This document shows positions 15,700 to 37,154 of a stretch of DNA of 64,000 nucleotides, in pieces (position 1 is the first letter of the stretch; the number at the start of each line of letters is the position of its first letter). The notes under the pieces were generated by a model, which ran no database searches, was not told where the DNA came from, and saw only the letters and a list, made by a program, of their open reading frames with translations. The DNA lies in the NCBI GenBank assembly GCA_943788755.1, contig CALSRM010000001.1:62001-126000 (forward strand). The letters are read 5' to 3'. The position numbers and the translations under genes are program-made. Source of the stretch: an uncultured Flavobacteriales bacterium (GTDB lineage: Bacteria; Bacteroidota; Bacteroidia; Flavobacteriales_D; Parvicellaceae).

Positions 15700-15773
15700 G
15701 GCGCGGTAGCTCAGTTGGTTAGAGCGCAGGATTCATAACCCTGAGGCCGGGAGTTCAAATCTCCCTCGCGCTA
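15700..15773 (+). tRNA. tRNA with CAT anticodon (tRNA-Met, elongator type)
   Basis: 74-nt cloverleaf: acceptor stem GGCGCGG / TCGCGCT (two G-U pairs), D arm GCTCAGTTGGTTAGAGC, anticodon loop TTCATAA with CAT at 15734-15736, T arm GGGAG-TTCAAAT-CTCCC and discriminator A. CCA is not encoded. The first pair is not the C-A mismatch of an initiator. A CAT anticodon can also belong to tRNA-Ile2 modified to lysidine, which the sequence alone does not exclude. Confidence 0.92.
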
Positions 15774-15776
15774 CAA

Positions 15777-15806
15777 AGCTCAAACTGGTAAGTTTGGGCT
15801 TTTTTT
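15777..15806 (+). terminator. Intrinsic terminator of the tRNA
   Basis: Hairpin AGCTCAAAC - TGGTAA - GTTTGGGCT (one G-T wobble) followed by seven T, four bases after the tRNA. Confidence 0.85.
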
Positions 15807-15915
15807 CTTTTAGGGCCGTTCGAACTTGTTCGTATAAGGCATAAGAGGAAAAAACTACATCGCAAGGCGATGAGCTTTGTAAATCCCCCTTTATATTCAC
15901 TGAGCGTAGCGAAGT

Positions 15916-15933
15916 AAATCTCCCTCGCGCTAC
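15916..15933 (+). repeat. Duplicated 3' tail of the tRNA
   Basis: The 18 bases AAATCTCCCTCGCGCTAC at the tRNA 3' end (15757-15774) recur exactly here, 159 bp downstream, again followed closely by a terminator hairpin. Could be the scar of a lost tandem tRNA or an attachment-site repeat left by an excised element; nothing integrase-like is nearby. Confidence 0.6.
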
Positions 15934-15935
15934 CA

Positions 15936-15964
15936 AAAAGCTGGATTTTTATCCAGCTTTTTTT
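15936..15964 (+). terminator. Strong hairpin terminator
   Basis: Perfect 11-bp stem AAAAGCTGGAT - TTTT - ATCCAGCTTTT with a trailing T run, just after the duplicated tRNA tail. Confidence 0.75.
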
Positions 15965-16017
15965 ATACCCTTTTTTTTATGAATGTCAATTCAATAAAAA
16001 ATAGAGTGTATGAAAAA

Positions 16018-16039
16018 CAGGCGGTTACGCCTGCTTTTT
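16018..16039 (+). terminator. Hairpin terminator-like element
   Basis: Stem CAGGCG - GTTA - CGCCTG followed by CTTTTT and preceded by an A run. It is the third such hairpin within 270 bp, with no intervening gene. Confidence 0.55.
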
Positions 16040-16108
16040 GGTACAAGTCCAACCAATATTCACTGAGCGTAGCGAAGTAAATCTCATTAATGAAATTCAT
16101 GAATATTT

Positions 16109-16178
16109 TCTTGCGCTAGGAATTGCGGTAGGTCTTGCGCTAGGAATTTTTAGAATTCCATAAAATGAATGTGTATTT
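16109..16178 (+). repeat. Cassette-spacer copies (TCTTGCGCTAGGAATT)
   Basis: TCTTGCGCTAGGAATT occurs at 16109-16124 and again at 16133-16148. The second copy continues as TTTAGAATTCCATAAAATGAATG, the same spacer found after the sorting-domain genes at 17555 and 20900. Here no sorting-domain gene precedes it, suggesting a deleted upstream cassette. Confidence 0.6.
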
Positions 16179-16297
16179 ATGTCTTTATTATTATCTATTG
16201 TATAAATGATTGTAAGTTGTATATTTACAGACTATTATAAAGTATTAATGGACTTTTTAAAAGAATTATATATTTTCATCTAAAAAAGATTTAACTC

Positions 16298-17549
16298 ATG
16301 AAACAACTATTACTATTACCTATTCTTTTTACCTCTTTTATTTCTGGACAGACAAATAATTATTCTCTTGAATTTGATGGGGTGGATGGATTATGTGGAA
16401 ATAAGCCATAATAGTGCATTAGATTTGACTAATTCAGTTACGTTTCCTTGGGTTAAAACTATAATTTTGAATAGTTCTTTCCAATACGATACATACGAAC
16501 AAAGGATGCTGGGCAATAATGGAAATTTAATCGACTAGATGCAACCCTAACAATGATTGTATCCTTTGTATAATTTATGATGGCTCAACATTATATTCTG
16601 AGATTTCTCAAGACATATTAATATCCATAATCAGTGGTATTATGTTACAAATATCATTTAATGGTATAAAATTCAATCTATATTAATGGTTTGTATCCTC
16701 GAATCATTACAATCATTTAGTCTTGCAAATAATTCCTTTCCATGTATTTATTGGTACCGACTATAATCAAGGATTCTTTTAGCGGTTATATTATGGAAAT
16801 GATACATCTGGAATACTGCACTACCGAGCAAGAAATACAAAACTATATGAATTGTCCACCAACTGGCAATGAAGCTGGTTTAGTTGGGTATTGGAACTTT
16901 GAAGAAGGAGCGGGTACAACCGCAGATGACCTTACTTCTAATGGAAACGATGGCACTATTAAATGGTGGTGTAACTTGGAGCACAGATGTTCCTCCTTAC
17001 AATTGTTGTACCCCAAACCCAATAACATCTCAACCCACAAACCAATCTACAACTATTGGAAATAACGCTACAATTTCATTTACAGATAATCTAACTGGAG
17101 CTACTTACCAATGGCAAATAGATGCAGGTACTGGTTATTCTGACTTATCAAATGCTGGACAATTCAGTGGTACAGATACACAAACACTTACTATTTCATC
17201 AACTACAATGAGTAATAATAATACACTTTACAGATGTATTGTAACTGAATCCTCAAATTGTATGGACACAACAGATGTTTCAACTCTTACAGTGATTGAT
17301 AATACCTCAATAAATGAAAATGGACTGAGTAACTTAACAATTTACCCCAACCCAACACCCGACCAAATAACAATCGATATAAAGGGTTATAATGGAGTTG
17401 TTAATGTTGAGGTATATGATTTACAAGGAAGGTTATTAGAAACCACCACAAACACCATTGTATCTCTTAAAAAACACGCCAAGGGAATCTATGTTCTTAA
17501 GGTGAGTTATGGAGAGATAACTGAAGAGGTTAGGGTAGTGAGGGATTAG
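16298..17549 (+). pseudogene. Degenerate LamG / Ig-like T9SS cargo gene
   Basis: Remnant of a secreted adhesin-like protein. It begins with a signal peptide (MKQLLLLPILFTSFISGQ) and the LamG opening NYSLEFDGVDG, but stops after about 38 codons; the LamG continuation (YVEISHNSALDLTNSVT) is in another frame. The LamG end (GLVGYWNFEEGAGTTADD, near 16880) is in a third frame. From about 17000 a continuous frame encodes an Ig-like domain (residues resembling GATYQWQIDAG) and a complete T9SS type A sorting domain ending at 17549. Several indels and lost motif positions make real decay more likely than a single sequencing error. First of four tandem genes with the same 3' end. Confidence 0.85.
17346..17549 (+). 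repeat. T9SS sorting-domain repeat, copy A
   Basis: 204 bp from the YPNP codons to the stop, nearly identical in copies at 20691-20894, 23799-24002 and 24964-25166. It encodes NPTxDQITIDIKGYNG, VEVYDLQGRLLE and ends ITEEVRVVRD. Identity at synonymous sites suggests recent duplication or gene conversion rather than only protein-level selection. Confidence 0.9.
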
Positions 17550-17554
17550 TAAGA

Positions 17555-17602
17555 TCTTGTGCTAGGAATTTTTACTATTCCATAAAATGAATAGTATATT
17601 TG
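17555..17602 (+). promoter_or_regulatory. Conserved cassette spacer with hairpin and -7 box
   Basis: TCTTGTGCTAGG is followed by the hairpin GGAAT-TTTTACT-ATTCC, then CATAAAATGAAT and TATATTTG (17595-17602), a perfect -7 box, 20 bp before the next ATG. Related spacers lie at 16133 and 20900. Confidence 0.55.
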
Positions 17603-17621
17603 GTTTGCTAAAATTTATTTT

Positions 17622-20600
17622 ATGAAAAGATTATTACTAGGTTTTTTATTTCTGCTATTTTTTGTTCCAATTAAATCTCAAACCCGTTACTTAGATGAAG
17701 TGTTTGCTAGTGTTACGGTTTCATCTAATGTTATATACGGAAATAATCTATCTGTTTTAACGGGGGTGCCTACAGCCGAGGATTTATTAATGGATATTTA
17801 CGAGCCAACAGGAGATATTGCAACCGATAGACCATTAATACTTTATTTGTCAGGCTTTAAATTTCTGCCTAGATACGTGAATCAATACCCTACTGGTTCA
17901 AAATCTGATAGTGCAACTGTTGAAATTTGCACTCGCTTGGCAAAACAAGGATATGTTGTTGCTGCGGTTGATTATAGAAAAGGATGGAGTCCAAGTTCTG
18001 CCATTAATTCCTACAGAACTGAAACATTTGTTCGAGCGGTTTACAGAGGTTTACAAGATGCTAAAACTTGTGTTCGTTATTTCAGAAAAGATGTTGCTAC
18101 AAACAATAACTCATTTGGAATTGACGATACAAAAATAGCAGTTGGTGGTCAAGGTTCCGGAGGTTACATTTCGCTTGCCTATGGAAGCTTAGACAAATTA
18201 TCTGAAATCCAGCTACAGAAATTTTACAACAATGAGACATCGGCTTATATGGTAGATACAACCTTATGGGGGAATTGGAGTGGAATTGGCGGCAATCCTG
18301 CCTATAACACTAGTAACCACGTTGGGTATTCGGATAATGTATCAATGGTCTTTAACATCGGTGGTGCTGTTGGAGATTCTACTTGGATTGAAGCTGGTGA
18401 AATACCGATTGTTACTATGCAAGGAGAAGCAGATTACTTTGCTCCTTTTCAATATGGAATTGTAACAGTGCCAGGAACAACCGTTTTCGTTATAGACGTA
18501 AGTGGATCCAGTGACATAAGTAGAATGGCAAATGCATTCGGAAACAATGATGTATTTAAGACTCCAGCAATAACAGATGTTTATACAACGCGAGCGAACG
18601 CTTTTAACACTGCAAATGATGCAACTTACGGAAACGCAGGTGACGAAGGTTTATTTGCATTTGAAGGTGCGGCAAATGGTAATGGCCCATGGGAATGGAT
18701 AGACACTGCTGCAGTTAAAGCAGAAGCTGCAGCTTGGGGCCAGGATGGAGATGTTATACTAGATAATTTTTATGCAAGTAATCCACTTTTTCAATATTAT
18801 TACGAAACTGCCGGATATGGAGCGGCTAGAACTAGAGCAATTGCATATTGTGATACAATCCAAGGATACTTATCGCCCAGACTTTTCAGGGGATTATTCT
18901 GTTTTGATTCATCAACTACTCTAATAAACGATGTTTTCTGCGGAAGTTACAATCTTAATGGACAAGTTTATAATGCTCCAGGCACTTATAGTCAAACACT
19001 TACTAATGGATCTGGTTGTGACAGCATTATTACTTTATCACTTAACTTAGATTCGACAAGTAACACTATTAACGATGTGTTTTGCGGAAGTTACATCCTT
19101 AACGGACAAACCTATACTTCCCCAGGAACCTACACACAAACATTAACGAATGTTGCAGGATGCGATAGTGTTATTACGCTTAATCTAAGTTACAATTCTT
19201 CCTCATCAACCATGACACAAATAGCATGTGGAAGTTACACCCTAAACGGTCAAACCTACACCTCCAGTGGAACTTTCACACAAACATTAACAAATGCAGT
19301 TGGATGCGATAGCACCATAAATTTGGTTTTAACTATTTTGTCATCCTACCCCTTAGCTTTTCAAGCGAACCCAACAGCAGGAACAACCCCTTTAAATGTT
19401 ATTTTCGATAATCAAACTCCTAATTTAAGTAACTATAATTTCACATGGAGCTTTGGAGATGGAACTGTTGTACAAGATAATGGAAGTTTTGTTTCTCATA
19501 CCTATCAGTCTGATGGAACTTGGGATGTAATGCTGATAGCTGAGGATATTACTACAGGTTGTACAGATACACTTTTTAATAATGGATATATCTTTAGTAC
19601 TGGAGGAACCCCTTGTGGACACGTAGCAGCAATTACTCAGTCAGGTCCAATAACAGCCTGCTTGAGCGATTCTATTTTCTTAAGCTGTAACACCGACCCT
19701 AATTTTACCTATCAATGGCAATTGAACGGTTTCCCAATTAGTGGAGCTACAGACCAAACTTATTACCCCGCACAGTCTGGTAGCTATATGGTTGTAATAA
19801 CCGATAACAATTGCCCTGTATTTTCCAGTACTATACAAGTAACCATCAATACGTTTACTGCTCCAACTATTTCAGGTGCTGGATCAATAAGTTCATGCAG
19901 TGGTGGAAGTATGACCTTGAGTGTTCCAGATGATTATGTGAGTTATTTATGGTCTTCCGGAGGTACGGATACATCAGAAGTGGTAACAAGTTCTGGAGAT
20001 TATACTGTTACAGTAATCAACGTTTCAGGATGTCAAGCAACATCATCTATCTACTCCATAAACGCTTCATTGATTCCTACACAAGAGATTTGTATTGTTA
20101 CAGTAGATAGTACATCTGACCATAACTTGGTGGTTTGGGAAAAACCCATAGTTGCCGGTATTGACAGTTTTATCGTTTACAGAGAAATGGGCACAAACAA
20201 CTATATGCCAATAGGTTCTGTTGCTTACGATTCATTGAGTCAGTTTTTAGATACCACCAATGGAATTAACCCGAATGTAACTTCCTATAGGTATAAGGTT
20301 TCCATTTTAGACACATGCGGAACAGAGAGTAATTTAAGTTATTATCATGAGACAATGCATTTATCTACTAATCAAGGTATAGGAGGAGAAGTTAATTTGA
20401 TATGGGATGAATATGAAGGATTTCCAATAGTGTATTATTATATCTTGAGAGATTCAACAGCGAATGGCAATTGGGAGGTACTTGATTCAGTATCTAGTAA
20501 TAACTTTATTTATACCGATTTAAACCCACCTGTTAGTGGAGTTAATTATGTAATAGAAGTGTTACCCCCAAATACTTGTACATCAACAAAAGCTCAAGAC

Positions 20601-20894
20601 CATAATTCAACGCGATCGAATAGAGCTTCTATAGTCGGTGGAGGTGGTCAAGGTATCTTCCAACATCCAACTAATAATGTAAATGTATATCCCAACCCAA
20701 CATCCGACCAAATAACCATCGATATAAAGGGTTATAATGGAGTTGTTAATGTTGAGGTATATGATTTACAAGGAAGGTTATTAGAAACCACCACAAACAC
20801 CATTGTATCTCTTAAAAAACACGCCAAAGGAATCTATGTTCTTAAGATAAGTTATGGAGAGATAACTGAAGAGGTTAGGGTAGTGAGGGATTAA
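17622..20894 (+). CDS. Secreted alpha/beta-hydrolase-like multidomain T9SS cargo protein
   Basis: 1090-residue secreted protein, the only intact gene of the four-gene array. Signal peptide MKRLLLGFLFLLFFVPIKSQ; an esterase-like alpha/beta-hydrolase domain (about 45-420: LMDIYEP, LILYLSGF, VVAAVDYRKG); three tandem ~37-residue repeats of the form CGSY-LNGQ-Y-GTY-QTLTN-GCDS (about 435-570); a PKD domain (WSFGDG); an Ig-like domain (YQWQLNGFPISGA); fibronectin-like segments; and the T9SS sorting domain. The nucleophile elbow reads G-G-Q-G-S-G-G (Ser179), so glycine stands where GxSxG needs Ser and a serine follows it; activity is therefore uncertain. Likely surface-attached or released by the type IX system. 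Confidence 0.88.
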   Translation: MKRLLLGFLFLLFFVPIKSQTRYLDEVFASVTVSSNVIYGNNLSVLTGVPTAEDLLMDIYEPTGDIATDRPLILYLSGFKFLPRYVNQYPTGSKSDSATVEICTRLAKQGYVVAAVDYRKGWSPSSAINSYRTETFVRAVYRGLQDAKTCVRYFRKDVATNNNSFGIDDTKIAVGGQGSGGYISLAYGSLDKLSEIQLQKFYNNETSAYMVDTTLWGNWSGIGGNPAYNTSNHVGYSDNVSMVFNIGGAVGDSTWIEAGEIPIVTMQGEADYFAPFQYGIVTVPGTTVFVIDVSGSSDISRMANAFGNNDVFKTPAITDVYTTRANAFNTANDATYGNAGDEGLFAFEGAANGNGPWEWIDTAAVKAEAAAWGQDGDVILDNFYASNPLFQYYYETAGYGAARTRAIAYCDTIQGYLSPRLFRGLFCFDSSTTLINDVFCGSYNLNGQVYNAPGTYSQTLTNGSGCDSIITLSLNLDSTSNTINDVFCGSYILNGQTYTSPGTYTQTLTNVAGCDSVITLNLSYNSSSSTMTQIACGSYTLNGQTYTSSGTFTQTLTNAVGCDSTINLVLTILSSYPLAFQANPTAGTTPLNVIFDNQTPNLSNYNFTWSFGDGTVVQDNGSFVSHTYQSDGTWDVMLIAEDITTGCTDTLFNNGYIFSTGGTPCGHVAAITQSGPITACLSDSIFLSCNTDPNFTYQWQLNGFPISGATDQTYYPAQSGSYMVVITDNNCPVFSSTIQVTINTFTAPTISGAGSISSCSGGSMTLSVPDDYVSYLWSSGGTDTSEVVTSSGDYTVTVINVSGCQATSSIYSINASLIPTQEICIVTVDSTSDHNLVVWEKPIVAGIDSFIVYREMGTNNYMPIGSVAYDSLSQFLDTTNGINPNVTSYRYKVSILDTCGTESNLSYYHETMHLSTNQGIGGEVNLIWDEYEGFPIVYYYILRDSTANGNWEVLDSVSSNNFIYTDLNPPVSGVNYVIEVLPPNTCTSTKAQDHNSTRSNRASIVGGGGQGIFQHPTNNVNVYPNPTSDQITIDIKGYNGVVNVEVYDLQGRLLETTTNTIVSLKKHAKGIYVLKISYGEITEEVRVVRD
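20691..20894 (+). repeat. T9SS sorting-domain repeat, copy B
   Basis: 204 bp; closest to copy A, with only a few substitutions (for example AAGATAAGT for AAGGTGAGT) and a TAA instead of TAG stop. Confidence 0.9.
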
Positions 20895-20899
20895 TAAGG

Positions 20900-20945
20900 T
20901 CTTGTGCTCTGTATTTTGGAATACCATAAAATGCATGTATATTTA
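20900..20945 (+). promoter_or_regulatory. Cassette spacer with covarying hairpin
   Basis: TCTTGTGCT, then GTATT-TTGG-AATAC and CATAAAATGCATGTATATTTA. Compared with the spacer at 17555 the hairpin arms have changed together (GGAAT/ATTCC to GTATT/AATAC), so pairing is kept while sequence differs. Confidence 0.5.
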
Positions 20946-22115
20946 GCGTTCTAAAATTTAAACTATGAAAAGATTATTACTACTTGCTATACCTCTATTC
21001 TTTAATTCTGCCATAAGTTATGGCCAATGTACTACACCTATTTTTCTGGATGCTATCCTCGACCAAAATATTTGTACAGGAGAATCACTTACGTTAACAG
21101 CTAATGCTGGAGTCTTACCGGAAGACAATCTTGTAATTACGGCTGTTTTTGATGGCCCACTAACAGGAGGTACGCCCAAAGGTGTAGAACTTTATGTTAT
21201 TAACGATATAAATGATTTAAGTGCGTATGGAATCGGTGCTGCTAATAACGGTGGGGGCTCGGATGGGCAAGAATTTACCTTTCCGGCTATTACTGCAGCT
21301 GCCGGGCAGTATATTTATTTAGCATCTGATTCTGCTCAATTTAACAATTGGTTTGGATTTGATGCAGACTATGTTCAGTTTTTTTATGGAGATTAATGGA
21401 GATGATGCTATAGACGTTATTTCACAGTGGAAGTGTAATCGATGTGTTTGGCGATATTAATGTTGATGGTAATGGTGAACCTTGGGAATATTTAGACGGT
21501 TGGGCTTATCGAAATAGCTCAACGGGTCCTGATGGCAATGTGTTTGTGCTCAATAACTGGAGTTTTAGCGGACCCAATGCACTGGATGGTGAGTTGTTAA
21601 ATGCTACCGCAACAAGCCCTGTACCTGTCGGTACGTTTATACCTACTATTATTAGTGCTATCAATACGTATACCATAGATGTAACTGCCTTAAGCAGTAT
21701 GGATTATACTTTTGCAGGAGATTTTTCGGGTGCCGATCCTGTTATTAATATGAACCTTGGGGATACACTTGTTTTTAATGTCAATACTCCCGGTCATCCG
21801 TTTTGGATAAATGATTTGCAAGGTACTGGCACTGCTAATGGAGTTACTGTTGCAGATAATGGAACTACGTCAGGTGTAATTACATGGACACCAACCTCTG
21901 CAGGTACGTATTATTACAATTGCGAATTTCACTCTATGATGACCAATACCATTACGGTGGGTCCACCCGCTATTTCTTATACATGGGATAACGGAGTTAC
22001 CAATGGAGTTTCTTTTACACCAACTGCTAGTGACGATTATATAGTAGTAGCCTCTGATCCTTTTGGATGTACGGATACGGAAACGGTAACTGTAACAGTT
22101 AATTCAAATCCTACT

Positions 22116-23762
22116 GTTGATGCAGGAGCAGATCAAACCGTATGTGAAGGAGAACCAGTAACCTTATCAGGTACAGGAGCAAGTTCATATACATGGGATA
22201 ATGGAGTAAGTGATGGTGTAGTATTTAACGCAACCAATACAACAACCTATAATGTAATAGGAACTGATGCCAATGGATGTGAAAACACGGATGAAGTAGT
22301 TGTAAATATAAATTCACTTCCAACTGTAGGTGCAGGAGCAGACCAAACCGTATGTGAAGGAGTTTCAGTAACGTTATCAGGATCTGGAGCAGTAGGCAGT
22401 CCACCTTATAGTTATCTTTGGGGTAATGGCGTGACGGACGGAGTTGCATTTAATGCAACCACTACCACAACTTATATTGTAACGGTTGCTGATGCTAATG
22501 GATGTGAGAATACAGATGAAGTGGATGTAGTTGTTAATCCAAATCCGATTCCCACGATTAATGGAGTCTCTGAATATTGCACTGGTACTTCAGCATTGCT
22601 TTCTACAGTTAATCCATATGATACTTATTTATGGTCTACTGGCGATGTTACAGCAACTTCAGCTGTCACTGCTTCGGATAATCCAATTTCTGTAACGGTA
22701 ACAAATACATTTGGTTGTTCATCAACGTCTGCGGTATTTTCTGTGTCAGAAAATACTGTAATAACATATAACTCGACAGAAACAATTTGTCAAGGCGATG
22801 CTATAATTATTCATGGAAACTCTCAATCTGATGCAAGTGTTTATTCTGAGACCTTTTCTTTGGGTACAGGTTGTGATAGTATTTCTAATGTTACTCTGGT
22901 TGTAAATGCTTTACCAACAGTTGTTGCAGGAGCTAATCAAGCAATTTGCGAGGGTGAAATAGTTACCTTGAGTGGTTCAGGAGCGACCACTTATGTTTGG
23001 AATAATGGAGTAGTAGAAAACACTCCATTTACCCCAACGTTAGGAACCGTTACGTATACATTAACCGGAACAGACGCGAATGGTTGTGTTAACACAGATG
23101 TTGTTGATCTTACTGTGAACGCTTTACCAATAGTTGATGCAGGAATAGACCAAGCCGTATGTGAAGGAGACCCAGTAACCTTATCAGGTGCAGGAGCAAG
23201 TTCATATACATGGGATAATGGAGTAAGTGATGGTGTAGCATTTAACGCAACCACTACAACAACTTATAATGTAATAGGAACTGATGCTAATGGATGTGAG
23301 AATACAGATGAAGTAATTGTAAGTGTAAATTCACTTCCAACAGTTAGTGCAGGTGCAGACCAAACCGTATGTGAAGGAGACCCAGTAACCTTATCAGGTG
23401 CAGGAGCAAGTTCATATACATGGGATAATGGAGTAAGTGATGGTGTAGCATTTAACGCAACCACTACAACAACTTATAATGTAATAGGAACTGATGCCAA
23501 TGGATGTGAAAATACAGATGAAGTAATTGTAAGTGTAAATTCACTTCCAACAGTTAGTGCAGGTGCAGATCAAACGATTTGTTCTGGAGATCCAATAACT
23601 TTATCAGGTACAGGAGCAAGTTCATATGCATGGGATAATGGAGTTACTGATGGTGTAGCATTTACACCGCTTTCAACAACTACATATACAGTTACTGGAA
23701 CCGATGTTAACGGATGTTCCAATACAGATGCCTTATCAATTGTAGTTGATGAATGCTCAGGG
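22116..23762 (+). repeat. 210-bp tandem repeats encoding Ig-like domains
   Basis: Periodicity of 210 bp (70 codons) is visible at 22116, 22326, 23133, 23343 and 23553. The units 23133-23342 and 23343-23552 are almost identical in DNA. Between 22545 and 22920 the units diverge in sequence and length. Confidence 0.85.
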
Positions 23763-23798
23763 ATATCAGATTTTAATCCAAGTAACTTAACAATCTAC

Positions 23799-24002
23799 CC
23801 CAATCCAACAGCCGACCAAATCACCATCGATATAAAGGGTTATAATGGAGGTGTTAATGTTGAGGTTTACGACTTACAAGGAAGGTTATTAGAAAGCACT
23901 ACAAATACCAAAGTGTCTCTTAAAAAACACGCCAAAGGAATCTATGTTCTCAAAGTGAGTTATGGAGAGATAACTGAAGAGATTAGGGTAGTGAGGGATT
24001 AG
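23799..24002 (+). repeat. T9SS sorting-domain repeat, copy C
   Basis: 204 bp, in frame with the Ig repeats. It shares GAAAGC and AATACCAAAGT variants with copy D, so C and D form one subgroup and A and B the other. Confidence 0.88.
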
Positions 24003-24051
24003 TTATTGCTTTCTTTGTATCTTTATTAGGTTAATTTATAGTTTAAATCTT

Positions 24052-25166
24052 ATGAAATCAATTGTAAGCGTTTTAATTTTAATTACCTCTTTTTGTTCTT
24101 TTGGTCAGGTTAATTCTTCCATTCAGCATGATGGTCTTACAAGGGATTTTGTTTATTACACGCCATCCAATTGGAATTCAAATCAGCAGCTTCCTCTTTT
24201 AGTCGTTCTTCATGGGCTTACCCAAACAGGTAATGGGATTATGGATATTACTGATTTTAATACCATTGCAGAAGATAATAATTTCATTGTGTGTTATCCG
24301 GATGGAATTAATAACTCCTTTAATGCCAATATGAATGTCACGGTTTCAACTGCTGACGATTTGGGGTTTATTGAATCACTCTTTGTTTATTTTGAACAAA
24401 ATCTAAATTCCGATCCGTTAAAAAGATATTTAACTGGCTTTTCTACAGGTGGTTTTATGTGTCATAAATTAGCTTGCGAGTCCTCTCTATGTTTTGCTGC
24501 AATAGCAACAGTTTCTGGTAATATGAGTGATACTGTCTATACTAATTGCTCTCCAAATAACCTAACCTCTGTTTTGCATATTCATGGAACTACAGATCCG
24601 GTAGTTAGCTATAATGGTAGCGCAACTTCTGGAGTTTCGGTAGATTCTACTATGGAAAAATGGAGAAATTATTTGGGTTGTGATATGACTCCAAATATGA
24701 CAACTATGCCAAATAATAATCTTTTTGATTTATCTTATCCCGAAAGGTATACTTATTCAACTTGTGGTAATTACTCATTGGAATTAATTAAAATAATGGG
24801 AGGAGGTCACCAATGGCCAGGCATTGCAACATTGGTTGGAGGTTTGGGTAATATAAATATGGATTTTTTTTCGCCGCAAATTATTTGGGAATTTTTAGAA
24901 AATAAAAGCTGTCCTAGTTCTGTTTCTATCAACGAAGAAAAGCTTTCTAGTTTACATATCTACCCCAATCCAACGGCTGACCAAATAATCATCGATATAA
25001 AGGGGTATAATGGACCGTTAATGTTGAGGTTTACGACTTACAAGGAAGGTTATTAGAAAGCTCTACAAATACCAAAGTATCTCTTAAAAAACACGCCAAA
25101 GGAATCTATGTTCTTAAGGTGAGTTATGGAGAGATAACGGAAGAGTTTAGGGTCGTGAGGGATTAG
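24052..25166 (+). CDS. Secreted PHB-depolymerase/feruloyl-esterase family hydrolase, sorting domain frameshifted
   Basis: Extracellular esterase of the LpqC / polyhydroxybutyrate-depolymerase family. Signal peptide MKSIVSVLILITSFCSFGQ, then LLVVLHGLTQTG (oxyanion strand), nucleophile Ser131 in GFSTGG, Asp182 in HGTTDPV and His253 in GGGHQWPG: a complete triad. The frame that starts at 24052 ends at 25056 because one base is missing in the sorting domain (AATGGACCGTTAATG against AATGGAGGTGTTAATG in copy C). The rest of the domain continues in another frame to the shared stop at 25166. As written the enzyme would lack most of its T9SS signal and should remain periplasmic. Confidence 0.87.
24964..25166 (+). 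repeat. T9SS sorting-domain repeat, copy D (1-bp deletion)
   Basis: 203 instead of 204 bp; the missing base is near 25013-25016. The frame restored after the gap is free of stops to the normal VRD end, so the lesion is recent or is a sequence error. Confidence 0.85.
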
Positions 25167-25278: not shown

Positions 25279-25791
25279 ATGGAAAATCAAGATTTAGAAG
25301 TGTTTGACGATGGAGAATTTAATAATGATTCACCTCGAAAGAGGCCAGCTTTCATTACTGTATTAGCTATTCTTAGTTGGATTTATGTTGCTATTGGAGT
25401 GTTAGGTGCACTTGTTAATTCATTTTCGTCAGAAGAGAAACAAATTGAGCAAATTGACCAAGCAATTGCGATTTACGATGACATGGATGAAATGCCTTTA
25501 CTTGATGACTCCATTGCCGCATTAGAAGCTTCCAAAGATAATCTTCGTATCACTAATTTAGGAAATCTTATTTTCCTGCTAATAGAGGGGATTGCTGTTT
25601 TTTTGATGTTTAACTTAAAGAGAAATGGATTTTGGCTTTACACTTTGGCACAAATTGGACTAGTTTCACTGCTAATAATGGTAATGCCCTGGCCTAATAT
25701 CATATCTACATTAACCGTCGTTTTCACTCTGTTTCTGGTGCTTCTTTTTGAAATACTTTATGCAGTCAATTTAAAGCATATGAAAACTTAG
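25279..25791 (+). CDS. Four-helix membrane protein of unknown function
   Basis: 170 residues with a charged cytoplasmic N-terminus (FDDGEFNNDSPRKRP) and four predicted membrane helices at about 22-45, 93-113, 117-137 and 142-165. An acidic extramembrane loop of about 45 residues follows the first helix. It resembles the small generic membrane proteins of Bacteroidetes, but I recognise no family. Own promoter; it ends 1 bp from the stop of the convergent DUF4159 gene. Confidence 0.75.
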   Translation: MENQDLEVFDDGEFNNDSPRKRPAFITVLAILSWIYVAIGVLGALVNSFSSEEKQIEQIDQAIAIYDDMDEMPLLDDSIAALEASKDNLRITNLGNLIFLLIEGIAVFLMFNLKRNGFWLYTLAQIGLVSLLIMVMPWPNIISTLTVVFTLFLVLLFEILYAVNLKHMKT

Positions 25792-26538: not shown

Positions 26539-27756
26539 ATGCAATCATTAGGAAATCATATTTTGGTGGAGATTACGGGTTGTAATCCGCAAGTAATGAA
26601 CGATGTTGCTTTTATTGAGCAAACGATGGTTGATTCAGCTACCATTGCTGGCGCAACGGTAATTAATTCTTCTTTTCATCATTTTTCGCCCTATGGCGTT
26701 TCAGGGGTTGTGGTTATTCAAGAAAGTCATTTAGCAATACATACATGGCCAGAGTACGGTTATGCTGCAGTAGATTTATTTACATGTGGAGATGAGGTAG
26801 ATGCTTGGAAGGCATTTGATTTTTTAAAAGAAAGTTTTGGCGCAAAAAATTATTCAGCTCTTGAAATGAATCGAGGAGCCATTAAAATGCTATCAAGAAT
26901 GGATGTTGATTTGGAGTCACTCCGAAGCACGGTAGAAGATAACATTGGGAAAGAAACCATAGAACGAAATATATGGTTTACGGATAAAGACGATTCTCAA
27001 GCGCTTTCCCTGCGGTATAGGAAACAATTATTTAAAGAAAAATCGGATTTTCAAGAAGTTAAAATTTTAGATACTTACCGCTATGGGAAAATGCTAACCA
27101 TTGATCAGATGGTTATGACAACTGAAAAAGATGAAGCTCATTACCATGAGATGATCGCCCATCCAGCAATGTTTTCTCACGGAAATGTAAAGAATGTCCT
27201 TGTTATTGGTGGAGGAGATGGAGGTACTGTGCGAGAAGTGTTAAAACATAAAAGTGTAGAGAAGGTAACGATGGTGGAAATTGATGAAGTTGTAATAAAA
27301 GCATGTAAAAAGTTTTTACCCTCAATTGCTTCAGAATTTGATAACCCGAAGTTGAATGTAATAATTGGAGACGGCATATCTTTTGTTGAAAACGCAAATG
27401 AGCAAGAATATGATTTAGTTCTAGTTGATGGTTCAGATCCGGTGGGCCCAGCAAAAGGGTTGTTTTCAAAAAATTTCTTTTTGAATTGTAAGCGTATTTT
27501 AAAAGAGCGGGGTATTCTTGTTGCGCAAGGAGAATCTCCAAAGTTTAATGAAAGCGTCTTTGTTGAGTTGAATACCACTTTTCAAGAGATTTTTGGAGTG
27601 GAAAAAACGAAACTTTCTTTATTTAACGTGCCATCATACCCTACGGGAATATGGAGTTTTCAATGGGGAGTTAAAGGTCTAATTGAACCAACTTTGGTTA
27701 ATTTTTCATTGGTGAATGATGTTTCTTTTATAAAAGACTTGAAAGTATTACAATGA
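26539..27756 (+). CDS. AdoMet decarboxylase - spermidine synthase fusion
   Basis: One polypeptide of 405 residues carrying two consecutive polyamine enzymes. Residues 1-115 are a class 1B S-adenosylmethionine decarboxylase. The proenzyme self-cleaves at Glu62-Ser63 ([12 protein letters not shown]) to form the pyruvoyl group; His68 and Cys83 occupy the positions of the catalytic residues known from the Thermotoga enzyme. From about 135 a spermidine-synthase domain follows, with GGGDGG at 224-229, VEIDEVV and [11 protein letters not shown]. The decarboxylated product would pass directly to aminopropyl transfer. Followed after 80 bp by a ureohydrolase gene, so the acceptor could be putrescine or agmatine. 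Start is the first Met before the SpeD beta strand [11 protein letters not shown]. Confidence 0.93.
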
Positions 27757-27836
27757 GGCAATTCATGGAAGTTCTTTTGCATTGCCTAACTATGTTCGGA
27801 AAATGGTTGGAAATAAAACAATAGAAAAAGTATACA

Positions 27837-28857
27837 ATGAGCTTTGATCCAAATGATGTTGGTGTGAATAATGGAAATATATTTGGTTTTCATACTACTG
27901 AAAATGAAGCAGAAGTATTGTTGATTCCTGTTCCTTGGGATTCAACGGCTTCTTATGGTCAAGGGACTTCAGCTGGCCCAAAAGCGATATTAGAGGCTTC
28001 TCTTCAACTCGATTTTTTTCATCCTGAGGTAGAAAATGCTTGGGATACAAAGGTTTTTATGACGCCTATTTCAGAAGATTGGAAAAATATAAATGATAAG
28101 CTAGCGGAAAGAACGGCTAAGTATATCCACTTTTTAGAAAATGGAGGTAATTTAAAAGAAAATAAGGAGCATCAAGAAACGATACGGAAATTGCAGTAGC
28201 TCAGAATTATTTGCGCGATAATTTGAAGAAGCGATCTGCCAAAGCTATTAATAATGGCCAAAAAGTAGGGGTAGTAGGAGGTGAACATAGTGTGCCTTTA
28301 GGTTTGATAGATGCTTTGGCGGATAAACATGCGTCTTTTGGAATTCTACAAATGGATGCGCATGCAGATTTGAGAAAAGGATATGAAGGTTTTGCGCAGT
28401 CACATGCTTCTATAATGTACAATGCATTGCAGCATAAAAGTGTTGCTTCATTAGTTCAGGTAGGTGTAAGAGATATTTCTCAGAGTGAAATAGATTTTAT
28501 TATGCTGATAAAAGAATCACCTCCTTTTTTGATTGGGACCTAAAAAGTAGGCAGTTTGAAGGGGCATTATGGTCTGATCAATGTAAAGATATTGTTAGCA
28601 GTCTTCCTCAGAAAGTTTATATAAGCTTTGATATTGATTGTCTTAAGCCGCATTTATGTCCGAATACAGGCACACCCGTTCCTGGAGGTCTAGAATTTGA
28701 AGAAGCTATCTATCTGCTTTTTGAAGTGGTGAAATCGGGTAGAGATATTATTGGATTTGATTTATGTGAAGTGGCTCCAGGCAATACAAAAGTAGATGCA
28801 ATAGTTGGTGCAAGAATCCTATGGAACCTCTGTCTTGTTGCGAATTATAATAAGTAA
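27837..28857 (+). pseudogene. Agmatinase-family ureohydrolase gene with two frameshifts
   Basis: Binuclear-manganese ureohydrolase (arginase/agmatinase family), which releases urea from a guanidino substrate. Three frames are needed: 27837-28199 (LLIPVPWDSTASYGQGTSAGP), from about 28160 to 28500 (GGEHSVP, MDAHADLR), and from about 28500 to TAA at 28857 (SFDIDCLKP, GFDLCEVAPG). All metal ligands (His of GGEH, DAHAD, DID) are present across the frames and each junction needs only a small indel. The protein would be about 340 residues. Placed directly after the AdoMetDC-spermidine synthase fusion, its substrate is probably agmatine or N1-aminopropylagmatine. Whether the lesions are real is unresolved. 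Confidence 0.85.
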
Positions 28858-28935
28858 CTACTATTATTTCTATTAATTGTTTACAAATATTGGGAATCTT
28901 TCCGGTAATCTTTTTAATTGTTCGATAATCCCTTT

Positions 28936-28943
28936 TACATTTG
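28936..28943 (+). promoter_or_regulatory. -7 box of the biotin operon
   Basis: TACATTTG 19 bp upstream of the bioB ATG; a TTG at 28918-28920 is spaced at 15, short of the usual 17-20. No clear BirA-type operator is seen. Confidence 0.5.
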
Positions 28944-28962
28944 TCCTATAAAATAGATCTTT

Positions 28963-30067
28963 ATGAATACTTGGACGAAAGAAGAGATAAGAGAAGTTTA
29001 TAATAAACCATTACTTGAATTGTTGTATGAAGCAGCTACAATTCATAGAAAGTACAACGACCCTAGAGAAGTTCAAATAAGTAAATTGGTGTCCATTAAA
29101 ACGGACGGTTGTCCGGAAGATTGCGGGTATTGTCCACAAGCAGCTCGATACCACACTGATATCAATGGAAATTCATTAATGAGTGTTGAAGAGGTCAAGG
29201 GGCATGCTCAAGAAGCAAAAGACATGGGTTCAAGCAGAGTTTGTATGGGTGCAGCTTGGAGAAATGTTAAAGATGATGCTGATTTTGATCAAGTACTAGA
29301 AATGGTGAAAGTCGGTCAATCAAATGGATATGGAAGTGTGTTGTACACTTGGTATGTTAACTGAAAATCAAGCCAGGAGATTAGCTGATGCCGGTCTATA
29401 TGCGTATAACCACAATTTAGATACATCAGAAGAATATTACAAAGAAGTCATTTCAACAAGGGGTTATGAAGATCGTTTGCAAACCATTGAAAATGCCAGA
29501 AAAGCGGATTTAACAGTTTGCTCAGGTGGAATTATCGGAATGGGAGAAAAAGACGAAGACAGAATTAGTATGTTGTATACTTATTCTTTAATGCGACCCC
29601 AACCTGAATCTGTTCCCATCAATGCTCTGGTTGCTGTTGAAGGAACTCCGCTTGAAGAGCAAAATCCAGTTCCAATTTGGGACATGATAAGAATGATTGC
29701 TACAACAAGAATTGTATTAGAACATTCAGCAGTTCGTTTATCAGCTGGAAGAACTGAAATGTCTGATGAAGGCCAAGCATTGTGTTTTATGGCTGGTGCC
29801 AATTCTATATTTGCAGGAGATAAACTGTTGACTACTCCAAACCCTGAGTTTAACAACGATTTAGCCTTGTTTGATAAATTAGGTCTTGTGCCAATGAAGG
29901 CATACAAGAAAGGCGATAAGCCAAAAATCAACGAAGCATATAAAGAAGCTCCAGAAAGCAAAGAAAAAATAAAATGGTCAAGACCGGAGCACAAAATAGA
30001 AAGAAACGAAGAGGCGAAACAGAAAGGAAAAGAAGTAAGAAAAGTTACTTCTGTTAAAGAACTTTAG
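28963..30067 (+). pseudogene. bioB: Biotin synthase gene with one frameshift
   Basis: Radical-SAM enzyme that inserts sulfur into dethiobiotin. The first frame (28963-29364) contains the cluster motif C50-x3-C54-x2-C57 (CPEDCGYC) and SSRVCMGAAWR. The second (open from 29324 to 30067) contains [27 protein letters not shown] and the [14 protein letters not shown] region. Removing the T at about 29329 (GGATATGG to GGAATGG) joins them as [12 protein letters not shown], matching the family exactly, so a single inserted base is the lesion. The C-terminus has a Lys/Glu-rich tail ([11 protein letters not shown] onward) longer than in E. coli BioB. First gene of the operon; 2-bp gap to bioF. Confidence 0.92.
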
Positions 30068-33562: not shown

Positions 33563-34834
33563 ATGTCAAAACTCAAAGAATTAGACAAAAAATACATCTG
33601 GCACCCTTTCGATCAAATGAAAGGAGCGGATATAATTCCAATTGTAAAAGGAGAAGGTTCTCACGTATTTGACGAAGATGGAAAGAAGTATATCGACGGT
33701 TTTTCTAGTTGGTGGGTAAATACACATGGACATGCAAACCCTTATATTGCTGAGAAATTATCCGAACAAGCTTTCACGCTTGAACATGTCGCTTTTGGGG
33801 GGTTTACGCATCCAAGTGCAGTAACGTTGTCGGAGAGGTTAGTAAATATACTTCCACAAAAAATTGAAAAGGTATTCTTTTCTGATAATGGTTCAACAGC
33901 TAACGAGGTAGCGCTCAAAATGTCAATTCAATATTGGTTTAACCAAGGTGAAAAAAGAAATCGATTTATTTCTCTTAAAGGAGACTATCACGGCGATACA
34001 TTTGGTAGCATGAGTCTTACGGCTAGGGGCGGTTTTAATGAGCCATTTGAGCGCTTTATGTTTGATGTTGATTTTATTGATATTCCAACAGAAGAGAATA
34101 GAATTGAATTATTAACAGAATTTGAGTTGTTGTTAAAAACGAATGACATCGCGGCCTTTATTTTTGAACCCATTGTGCAAGGTGCAGGCGGAATGATCAT
34201 GCATTCTCCGGAGGTGCTGTCTGAGTTAATAGGGTTGTGCAACCAATATGGAGTTATTGCAATTTCTGATGAAGTTTTTACAGGGTTTGGAAGAACTGGA
34301 AAGATGTTTGCCATAGACCATTGTGAAAATAAGCCAGACATTGTTTGCTTGTCTAAAGGAATAACGGGTGGCTTTATGGCTATGGGGATTACTGCTGTTT
34401 CTGATAAAATTTATCAAGCATTTTATTCTGACGATAAGGGGAAGACCTTTTTACATGGTCATTCTTATACAGGAAATGCATTGGCTTGCAGTGTGGCAAA
34501 TGCTTCTTTAGATTTATTTGAAAAAGAGGATGTTTGGCAAAATATTGAATCAATTTCTAAAATGCAAAGTGAGTTTGTTCGTTTAATTGCAACAAATTCA
34601 GGGGTAAGAGCTGCCCGGAGTTTTGGAACAATTGCAGCGGTCGAATTAGAATCCGATGGAGCAAGTTCTTATTTCAATAGCAAAGGAAAAGAAGCCTATA
34701 GTTTTTTATTAGAAAAAGGAATAATACTTAGACCGTTAGGAAATGTAATTGTTCTGATTCCCCCATATTGTATAAGTAGCAAGGATCTAGAATATATGTA
34801 TGAATCAATTCAAGAATATTTGAATTTAAGCTAG
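33563..34834 (+). CDS. bioA: Adenosylmethionine-8-amino-7-oxononanoate aminotransferase
   Basis: PLP aminotransferase making 7,8-diaminopelargonate, 423 residues. Opening IWHPFDQM and SSWWVNTHGH are characteristic of BioA; FIFEPIVQGAGGM, SDEVFTGFGRTG and PLP lysine K265 (CLSKGITGG) follow. A TACTTTG box 20 bp upstream could be an internal promoter. Its TAG shares the palindrome CTAG (34831-34834) with the stop of the convergent lipoprotein gene. Confidence 0.94.
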   Translation: MSKLKELDKKYIWHPFDQMKGADIIPIVKGEGSHVFDEDGKKYIDGFSSWWVNTHGHANPYIAEKLSEQAFTLEHVAFGGFTHPSAVTLSERLVNILPQKIEKVFFSDNGSTANEVALKMSIQYWFNQGEKRNRFISLKGDYHGDTFGSMSLTARGGFNEPFERFMFDVDFIDIPTEENRIELLTEFELLLKTNDIAAFIFEPIVQGAGGMIMHSPEVLSELIGLCNQYGVIAISDEVFTGFGRTGKMFAIDHCENKPDIVCLSKGITGGFMAMGITAVSDKIYQAFYSDDKGKTFLHGHSYTGNALACSVANASLDLFEKEDVWQNIESISKMQSEFVRLIATNSGVRAARSFGTIAAVELESDGASSYFNSKGKEAYSFLLEKGIILRPLGNVIVLIPPYCISSKDLEYMYESIQEYLNLS

Positions 34835-36261
34835 AAAGAAGCTCTAATCTTTTGTGAAATATCTTCTGGACTTGATTTAGTGACATCTTGGGTAGAGAAT
34901 TTCATTTCAACTAAATTACCCTCAAGATTTTGTTTGGTTAGTTTAAAGTTATCAATTATTGCAAGTTCTCCTTTCATTGTAACTCCCCAAAAAGAGTGAT
35001 GATTGTCCTTAGGAAATTTAATTTTATCAGGAAAACCAACTGGTACTACTGCTCTTGTTTTATTATCAATACAATATAATTCATAGAAGGATATTTCGTC
35101 ATTATTTTTGTTTTGATATTTGAAAAACAATTCAGTGAAATCGGTTAATATATAAAATCTATCGCAGTTAAAAATACCAAAATTATCTGATGTAAATACA
35201 CGCTGAATGCCAGCACTTGATTTATCTATATTGTCTGCGTTTTGTTCATAATTTTTTGCAATTTCCAACATTTTTTGTGTTTCAGCTTCTTGTTTTTCAT
35301 TAGCATCTTGAATCAATTTCATGTCTTTCTCATGTTCTTTAAATAATTCTTCATATTCATTAATTGCAGTTTCATAATCGTTACCTTCTAGTGCTGGTTC
35401 AACAAAGTACTCTAAGTTTATATCCTCTCCTGTATCTGATTTCCCATAAAATTTCAATTTATAAAGTCCTTTAGTATTTGTGTTTTTAACTTCAACATAA
35501 TACCAAGCTTTTTTACTTTCACCTCTTTTGTATTTTGATTTTTCAGAAACATGAAACATTACATTTTCATACTTTTTAAGTTCTGGAACATATTGGTCAT
35601 TGTCTAACTTAAGTGTAATTAATCTAGGGTCATTTGGGTCTAGTTTGTTTGGTTTTACCGGTGCTGGGTCTATTTTCTGTAAAGCCTTTATTGGAGTTGG
35701 TTGATTGTCTTTCTGAATTATTTTTAATGAAACCATAACCGAATCTTTACCCTTTGTTTCCCATTTTCCAGTTTTCTCATTAAAAGAATATAGCCCAAAA
35801 TCTGTTTCTGAACTTTGTGAATTTAATCCAACTTTAATCTCTTTACCTTTTGCGAATTGAATGTCATCAATAGGTTTTATTTCACACATTCCTGCGGATT
35901 CGAAAAAATGATCACCGCTTTCATCTTTGTATGTCATTGGTATTCCACTTAAGAAAATGTCTTCATTTGAATCGAACTCCCTAAATTTTATTTTCGTGGA
36001 TGAGTTAAGAGCTTTTCCTTGCTTATCAACGAAACATCCTTTAGGAATTTCAAGAAAAGAACCTGATTCAAATTGTATCAAAGTATCTTTATTTGGGTTT
36101 ATAGTTAACGTAATGAATTCAATGCATGTTCCAAAAGGAGGTGCTATGAATGATTTGGGTTCTGTTTTGCCGATTTTGGGTATATCAATTTTATAATTAT
36201 CCTCGGTCGAACAATTGTATAATAAAACTGTTGTAAAGATTACAAGTATAATATTTTTCAT
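34831..36261 (-). CDS. Large lipoprotein of unknown function
   Basis: 476 residues. Lipoprotein signal MKNIILVIFTTVLLYNC with acylated Cys17. The N-terminal beta domain has the pattern FESGSFLEIPKGCFVD, then IFLSGIPMTYKDESGDHFFESAGMCEI, seen in a group of Bacteroidetes surface or periplasmic proteins I cannot name further. A helical Glu/Lys-rich stretch (about 290-340) precedes a C-terminal beta region (FGIFNCDRFY). No enzymatic motif is visible. Confidence 0.8.
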   Translation of the reverse strand: MKNIILVIFTTVLLYNCSTEDNYKIDIPKIGKTEPKSFIAPPFGTCIEFITLTINPNKDTLIQFESGSFLEIPKGCFVDKQGKALNSSTKIKFREFDSNEDIFLSGIPMTYKDESGDHFFESAGMCEIKPIDDIQFAKGKEIKVGLNSQSSETDFGLYSFNEKTGKWETKGKDSVMVSLKIIQKDNQPTPIKALQKIDPAPVKPNKLDPNDPRLITLKLDNDQYVPELKKYENVMFHVSEKSKYKRGESKKAWYYVEVKNTNTKGLYKLKFYGKSDTGEDINLEYFVEPALEGNDYETAINEYEELFKEHEKDMKLIQDANEKQEAETQKMLEIAKNYEQNADNIDKSSAGIQRVFTSDNFGIFNCDRFYILTDFTELFFKYQNKNNDEISFYELYCIDNKTRAVVPVGFPDKIKFPKDNHHSFWGVTMKGELAIIDNFKLTKQNLEGNLVEMKFSTQDVTKSSPEDISQKIRASF

Positions 36262-36328
36262 ATTTCAAAGATTTAATATAAAGGTAATGAAGCTATTTTA
36301 ATTCGATACAATTTTTAATTGTGAAAAA

Positions 36329-36363
36329 AATAAAGCTCATTCTTATTAGGAATGAGCTTTATT
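36329..36363 (-). terminator. Terminator after the 36387 gene
   Basis: Perfect 14-bp stem AATAAAGCTCATTC - loop 36343-36349 - GAATGAGCTTTATT. On the minus strand it is followed by a T run, and it lies 24 bp past the stop at 36387. Confidence 0.88.
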
Positions 36364-36386
36364 TTCAATAATATAGGGTTGTTGAA

Positions 36387-37154
36387 CTACCCAGTGATCT
36401 CGTCGTATAGTTTTTTAAATTCTTCATTATCATCTAATAAACAATCTTCCCTTGCTTCATAGAAAAATGGTTGACCCATACTGATGACCTCAATTGCTTT
36501 TGCATGGTCTTTTTCATCAATAAATGAAGCGTATTCCATTAATGATTTACGTAAAAATCTTTGTTGAATTTCAGTTAAATCACCCAACTGAACATCTGTC
36601 CCAATCGTTTTGATTAAGTCGATAGCTGCTGCAACTATTTTTTTACCTTCTGTTTGGTTTTTCGTCCGAATTTCTAATTCTCCCCATAATAAACGAGCAC
36701 CATGATCTTTAGGGTCAAATGCACATACTTTTTTAAGAATACCTGCGGCCTTTTTGTATCCTTTTTCAGTGTTGGTAAGCATGTAGTTTTCTACATCCTC
36801 ATAGATAATTTCCTTTAATTGGTCTATGTATTCTTGAGAGTCTTCTTCATAAGTATTATCTGGATCTTTTTTTCTGTATTTTTTTGCAAAACTTAAAGCA
36901 GTGCTGTACGCCTTTGGCCAGTTTTCACTATATTGATGATCTTGGCTCATTTCAAAAGAAGCCATCGAAACATATAAATAAGGCAAAGGGTGCTTTTTGG
37001 TCTTCTCATTCTCAGTGTAATTTATTGCTTTCACAAAACATTTCTCATATTTCTCATCAACGTACAATATTAATAGGTCCTGATATTCTTGACTTAATAC
37101 TGTGTTTATTGAAGTGTATGATATTAGGGATAAAATGACAAGTAGCTTTTTCAT
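36387..37154 (-). CDS. Exported TPR-like helical protein
   Basis: 255 residues with signal peptide MKKLLVILSLISYTSINTVLSQ. The remainder is almost wholly helical with TPR-like segments (YLYVSMASFEMS, GYKKAAGILKKVCAFDPKDHGARLLWGELEI). No catalytic motif. Probably a periplasmic scaffold or partner protein; monocistronic, with its own terminator. Confidence 0.78.
   Translation of the reverse strand: MKKLLVILSLISYTSINTVLSQEYQDLLILYVDEKYEKCFVKAINYTENEKTKKHPLPYLYVSMASFEMSQDHQYSENWPKAYSTALSFAKKYRKKDPDNTYEEDSQEYIDQLKEIIYEDVENYMLTNTEKGYKKAAGILKKVCAFDPKDHGARLLWGELEIRTKNQTEGKKIVAAAIDLIKTIGTDVQLGDLTEIQQRFLRKSLMEYASFIDEKDHAKAIEVISMGQPFFYEAREDCLLDDNEEFKKLYDEITG

Follow-up and report, generated by a model that had tools for sequence, protein, structure and literature searches.

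How does a bacterium place a common export tail on a new enzyme or adhesin? In the Bacteroidota, many proteins are exported via the T9SS by means of one loosely conserved tail, and the origin of that tail on new cargo is the question on which the gene array described here bears. The array lies in a window of 64,000 nucleotides (G000:C1:62001-126000), which is part of a 3.17-Mb, five-contig genome (G000), and was compared at the species level with the corresponding locus in three congeneric genomes (G001, G002, and G003). Four + strand genes stand between a tRNA-Met gene (15700-15774) and a gene encoding a 170-aa membrane protein (25279-25791), the first gene of a conserved right flank, and each carries a TIGR04183-type C-terminal sorting domain (CTD). 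With a tail that is present as a shared DNA repeat, relatives that differ, and remnants that have been left behind, this locus makes tail-mediated gene turnover directly testable.

All array elements located below, including both flanking genes, are on the + strand. Gene 1 (16298-17549) comprises a degenerate N-terminal part, with five in-frame stops within its first 101 codons, an Ig-like part (a weak Ig_3 match), and a CTD (PF18962). According to the family search, gene 2 (17622-20894) encodes an alpha/beta hydrolase (BD-FAE), a PKD domain, a stalk segment (19255-20640), and a CTD. Gene 3 (20965-24002), whose layout was drawn from the ORF list, the family search, and comparison with the relatives' loci (L069, L070), consists of two ORFs with a frameshift near 21396-21444 and encodes PKD/Ig_7 repeats and a CTD; in-frame repeats with a 210-bp period run from 21984 to 23773. 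Gene 4 (24052-25166) encodes an esterase (PHA depolymerase-like) whose CTD is out of frame in the G000 assembly. In the family search, the CTDs of genes 1-3 scored above the curated cut-off for the TIGR04183/PF18962 T9SS sorting domain; the copy in gene 4, broken by a frameshift and with one stop inside, was recognized by the TIGR04183 search. SprA, the component of the T9SS machinery that was searched for, was found in the genome (2515 bits), which suggests that the system is likely active in G000.

Part of the damage to these genes may be technical. Downstream of the array (26539-30067), bioB (present as two ORFs that overlap), the end of speD/E, and the gene at 27837 look frameshifted when judged against relatives or from the ORF layout, so that the G000 assembly probably carries indel errors; since these conserved neighbors are affected as well, the stops of gene 1 and the split of gene 3 may be sequencing errors in part. 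The same side of the window holds a subtilase gene (PF00082; 31199-32901) that lies amid the biotin genes and that G003 and G002 do not have. It also holds a 476-aa gene with no Pfam match (34822-36388), which is missing at this place in G003 and G002 and which, by eye, resembles a 464-aa gene (L213, 9395-10789) found in G003 at the place equivalent to that of the unlinked C2 gene discussed below.

The 3' ends of the four genes are direct repeats of about 205-220 bp, located by repeat comparison and profile search at 17331-17549, 20676-20894, 23784-24002, and 24947-25166 for genes 1 to 4, respectively. The initial annotation described these ends as nearly identical, a wording that suits only genes 1 and 2 (96% DNA identity) and genes 3 and 4 (93%), because the remaining array pairs are 88-91% identical. 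Read backward from the stop, most array pairs agree at 16-20 of every 20 nt until about 200-220 nt upstream of it, and beyond that point at only 3-9 of 20; in pairs that involve the frameshifted gene 4, register is lost earlier in the upstream comparison. This drop supports the description of the N-terminal modules as unrelated to one another; in gene 1, however, the N-terminal part is degenerate. For gene 3, the family search returned no lamin-tail or cupredoxin hit, and these labels come only from the initial annotation. Identity had also been claimed for synonymous positions; these are indeed alike, yet third positions are the most variable, with 4, 3, and 16 variable sites at the first, second, and third codon positions among genes 1-3. 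Such a distribution points to recent common descent of the array CTDs, with ordinary third-position drift. It also rules out DNA-level invariance of the CTD, which had been considered as a possible recombination signal.

A second repeat is found on the 5' side of the genes. A leader element upstream of gene 1 (16063-16297) is also present at the C2 gene and at gene B of G003, and repeat comparison revealed a short form of it 5' of gene 2 (17550-17621) and of gene 3 (20895-20964). The leader and the first signal-peptide codons are common to these two gaps and to the region upstream of gene 1. The shared spacer, which had been placed in two or three of the gaps, thus follows genes 1 and 2 and also precedes gene 1, but it is absent after genes 3 and 4. 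CTD and leader copies together take up an estimated eighth or so of the interval. Of 222 loci examined, only those of the array and of the C2 gene contain the 25-bp core of the leader; L219 adds a single match to a shorter, related motif. A promoter function is predicted at most, and the promoter scan of the array, with 30 sites compared to a shuffle mean of 39.4, lends it no support, as there are fewer sites than in the shuffles.

Within G000, 125 TIGR04183 matches lie above the cut-off, and 122 of these CTDs were compared at the DNA level, a family being defined by at least 80% identity over at least 100 bp. The array family is the largest, with seven of the 122 CTDs: the four of the array and three at unlinked places in the genome, where the initial annotation had proposed to look for the same 3' end. 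The other groups have four, two, and two members, and no further pair among the 122 reaches 80% over 100 bp. The four-member group (C3:706684, 710231, 810695, and 1377773; L039, L036, L023, and L079) also shows a sharp edge of likeness just before the CTD. In two of its members, identity is 56-70% upstream, rises to 94-100% in a stretch that starts about 150 bp 5' of the CTD and ends near the stop, and is at background thereafter; the other two are near-identical upstream as well and are therefore regarded as plain recent duplicates. For the array itself, plain recent duplication combined with strong constraint on the CTD, and no exchange, is hardly credible. The CTD is a functional signal and its dN is low, as such a history would predict; however, other CTDs of G000 have diverged beyond DNA alignment, and in the array family the synonymous sites are alike too and are less diverged between species than are orthologous genes. 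A synonymous constraint specific to this family would be needed, yet third positions vary.

The three unlinked copies differ in what precedes the tail. The C2 gene (L072, 7133-10982) has the leader, an N-terminal part unlike the hydrolase of gene 2, a stalk of 1.4 kb, and the CTD; its stalk is about 93-95% identical to that of gene 2, and the two genes thus share leader and CTD while their effectors are unrelated. In G003, the place of this gene is occupied by other genes. Similarly, the C3:144 gene has no counterpart beside the same flank in G003 or G002, nor does the C3:806 copy, an orphan tail (stalk end and CTD) located downstream of a tRNA-Arg. In total, all five of these family places (genes 1 and 2, C2, C3:144, and C3:806) are without an in-place counterpart in G003, and among the seven family places of G000 only genes 3 and 4 have one. 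G003 possesses an unlinked family copy of its own, in which FG-GAP and SprB repeats precede a similar stalk end and CTD; the ORF directly 3' of this gene (L217, 9138-10481) shows a GIY-YIG match that is weak and falls short of the cut-off.

The flanks of the array (tRNA-Met on the left, the membrane gene and speD/E on the right) are collinear at about 87% across the relatives, and outside the array interval and some smaller gaps, both G003 and G002 align collinearly with the 64-kb window of G000 at 82-93%. Between these flanks, gene content is different in each of the four genomes. In the G003 interval, the esterase is accompanied by a PKD gene of 1038 aa and by a relative of gene 3; that of G002 contains a trypsin/TPR gene, approximately 8.5 kb of unrelated ORFs, and a LamG-containing relative of gene 3, with no esterase; and the G001 contig has a different gene with its own CTD, labeled Calx-beta-like from its similarity to a Calx-beta-type gene of G000. 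In G002, the CTD of the LamG-type gene leads directly into the sequence that flanks the esterase downstream, which looks like the outcome of a recombination between two CTDs in which the esterase was lost or was never gained. In both G001 and G002, foreign genes adjoin CTD remnants in which the 5' part is missing and the 3' end is kept, and another remnant of this form is found at G002:C23; the joint of the G002 trypsin/TPR gene is about 45 bp upstream of a CTD core. These joints at or near the CTD were read by eye, and they are few and not independent of one another. Gene order, the point on which a comparison of relatives had been advised, is therefore not fixed among G003, G002, and G001 at the species level, and breakpoints appear to fall in or near the repeat.

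The initial annotation had gone further and proposed that effector domains are captured or swapped by homologous recombination at the common 3' end. Effector exchange with kept ends is seen between gene 2 and the unlinked C2 gene, but the genes inserted in G002 and G001 bypass the array CTD: they are out of frame with it, have no CTD, or have a different one. That new effectors are captured in frame at the CTD itself was not borne out, and the clear swap joint lies about 1.4 kb upstream, in the stalk repeat.

Misjoining of repeats in the metagenome assemblies is another conceivable explanation; the G001 contig stops about 870 bp past its CTD remnant, and frameshifts are present in G000. In the contigs of G000, G002, and G003 (140-610 kb), however, the interval has unique sequence on both sides, and the remnants differ in sequence from other copies (85-92% identity to gene 1), which makes misassembly a very improbable explanation.

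Divergence at synonymous sites bears on the age of the copies. The CTD dS is 0.10 between genes 1 and 2 and 0.36-0.37 between either of them and gene 3. These values are far below the divergence of unrelated T9SS genes, whose CTDs are mostly unalignable at the DNA level, and the expectation of the initial annotation on this point was upheld. Between gene 1 of G000 and the trypsin-linked copy of G002, the dS is only 0.044, whereas orthologous genes of these species have values of 0.27-0.79 (0.54 for the esterase body; the two speD/E values, 0.27 and 0.49, may be affected by the frameshift close to the 3' end). From this difference, some CTD copies look as though they were exchanged after the species split, and exchange between species is strongly suggested; the best reading of the sequence comparisons is that exchange at the array has been partly between species.

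The phylogeny of the CTDs, mostly unresolved and used only for AU tests, is in part consistent with this. A single clade of all seven G000 copies was rejected (p-AU 0.016), and a clade of the three copies in the gene 3 position was marginally rejected (p 0.0495). A sister relationship between the esterase CTDs of G000 and G003 was not rejected (p 0.33), a result that does not favor the preferred reading. These two CTDs are only 74% alike though the esterase bodies are orthologous, while the G000 copy is 93% identical to that of its neighbor, gene 3; either the G000 esterase CTD was converted by gene 3, or the G003 copy was replaced or diverged fast. It could be argued that concerted evolution is sufficient, with gene conversion keeping the CTDs alike and with gains and losses of genes at the locus being unrelated to the repeats. 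The grouping of the CTDs of genes 3 and 4 in G000 (support 95/93) and the divergent tail of the orthologous esterase in G003 are what conversion would produce. It would leave aside, though, the gene-replacement joints and remnants in or beside the CTD, as well as the CTDs held in common across species at a dS of 0.04, and we consider this explanation unlikely.

The left end of the interval provides evidence of another sort. The tRNA-Met (CAT), identified with ARAGORN (L075, L069, L070) and as an Rfam tRNA, is the conserved left anchor. It is followed in G000 by the left-end type found 3' of tRNA-Met in G003 (15775-15915; blastn and reading), then, only about 140 bp away from the tRNA, by a 20-bp direct repeat of its 3' end identified by sequence comparison (15916-15935, 19 of 20 identical), and then by the left-end type found 3' of tRNA-Met in G002 (15936-16149, 97% identical). 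The presence of both types in tandem around the copy of the tRNA tail suggests that two versions of the locus may have been joined there. Site-specific integration of a genomic island at the 3' end of tRNA-Met, with the CTD likeness being incidental, would account for this tandem arrangement and for the family remnant downstream of tRNA-Arg. On the other hand, Pfam scans of array ORFs, which covered the small ones in part, detected no integrase, the differences between genomes are located at several inner CTD joints, beyond those adjacent to the tRNA, and no tRNA is present in the stretch examined around either the C2 or the C3:144 copy. Such an island therefore appears quite improbable as the source of the array.

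Turnover is not confined to this family. As a control, the 30 best-scoring CTD loci of G003 were considered; two were family members, and for 20 of the other 28 a single G000 locus matched the body as well as the CTD. Three gave partial matches (L175, body and downstream region without the CTD; L184, CTD and downstream region; L194, a short downstream piece), and five had no G000 counterpart, a count that could be lower because 122 of the 125 G000 CTDs were compared. Since these five were ordinary CTD loci, some cargo turnover is general. One of the partial matches, L175 (G003:C11:348901), is 87-88% identical to L118 (G000:C1:316520) in the body and downstream, with about 700 bp including the CTD unaligned, and is a candidate for 3'-end replacement outside the array family.

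More generally, a DNA query with the CTD matched 8 of 39 genomes of the same taxonomic family, from three genera; outside the genus, matches were 66-74% identical or limited to a short piece. A milder likeness is seen in G009, where a tandem pair of genes that differ in their bodies has CTDs 80% alike. Among named records, relatives of the CTD were found in MAGs of "uncultured Flavobacteriales bacterium", isolates C_MB131 and AF_MB37. No relative was found in viral contigs, plasmids, or phages, which is weak evidence against a mobile vector, as this lineage is poorly sampled.

The shared ends, the fixed flanks with different genes between them, the joints at or beside the repeats, the truncated CTD remnants, and the CTD histories that disagree with those of species and genes together lead us to propose, with a probability of roughly 65%, that the interval from tRNA-Met to the membrane gene is a recombination hotspot for T9SS cargo genes in which CTD and leader repeats act as homology arms. 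Within it, cargo genes would be gained, lost, and made mosaic by recombination. The CTD repeat would form the 3' arm; several genes would also have a 5' arm, made up of the leader and the beginning of the signal peptide, with unrelated effector DNA between the two. Recombination may be homologous or one-end-homologous, and may involve both DNA from relatives and paralogues within the genome; the enzyme pathway and the uptake of DNA are parts of the model that we infer. Variety among secreted proteins would be what selection keeps. A bolder version, possible but doubtful, is that CTD DNA and the leader/signal-peptide repeat form a two-ended exchange platform between which DNA of relatives is swapped, the export tag doubling as a recombination handle. 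The second sharp-edged CTD family and L175 would then be further cases.

The hotspot resembles several known systems. In tRNA-linked genomic islands, variable content lies beside a tRNA whose 3' end is duplicated. The array shares these two features at tRNA-Met but differs in having inner joints at CTDs and no integrase in the ORFs scanned. Polymorphic toxin systems, such as the TANFOR proteins of Bacteroidetes, also pair a conserved trafficking module with effector modules that are exchanged. Their conserved module is N-terminal (PMC7073777), whereas the array has the C-terminal sorting domain in that role; neither a toxin gene nor an immunity gene was recognized. In the literature covered, which takes in only a minority of subscription journals, recombination at T9SS CTDs was found only in work on Porphyromonas. 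The closest parallel is P. gingivalis, in which rearrangement of adhesin domains and allelic exchange affect the T9SS cargo genes kgp, rgpA, and hagA (PMC5266723). In both cases, cargo genes have modules in common, and recombination between repeats or alleles yields new combinations of surface proteins, conditionally so for the array. In P. gingivalis, the shuffled or repeated parts are inner adhesin modules of a few fixed genes, compared among strains (PMC5266723); in the array, by contrast, CTD and leader are repeated, whole genes change, and species were compared. Our best reading is thus that this kind of process is already known from the shuffling of Porphyromonas adhesins, and that what is new is the use of tail and leader as the shared parts.
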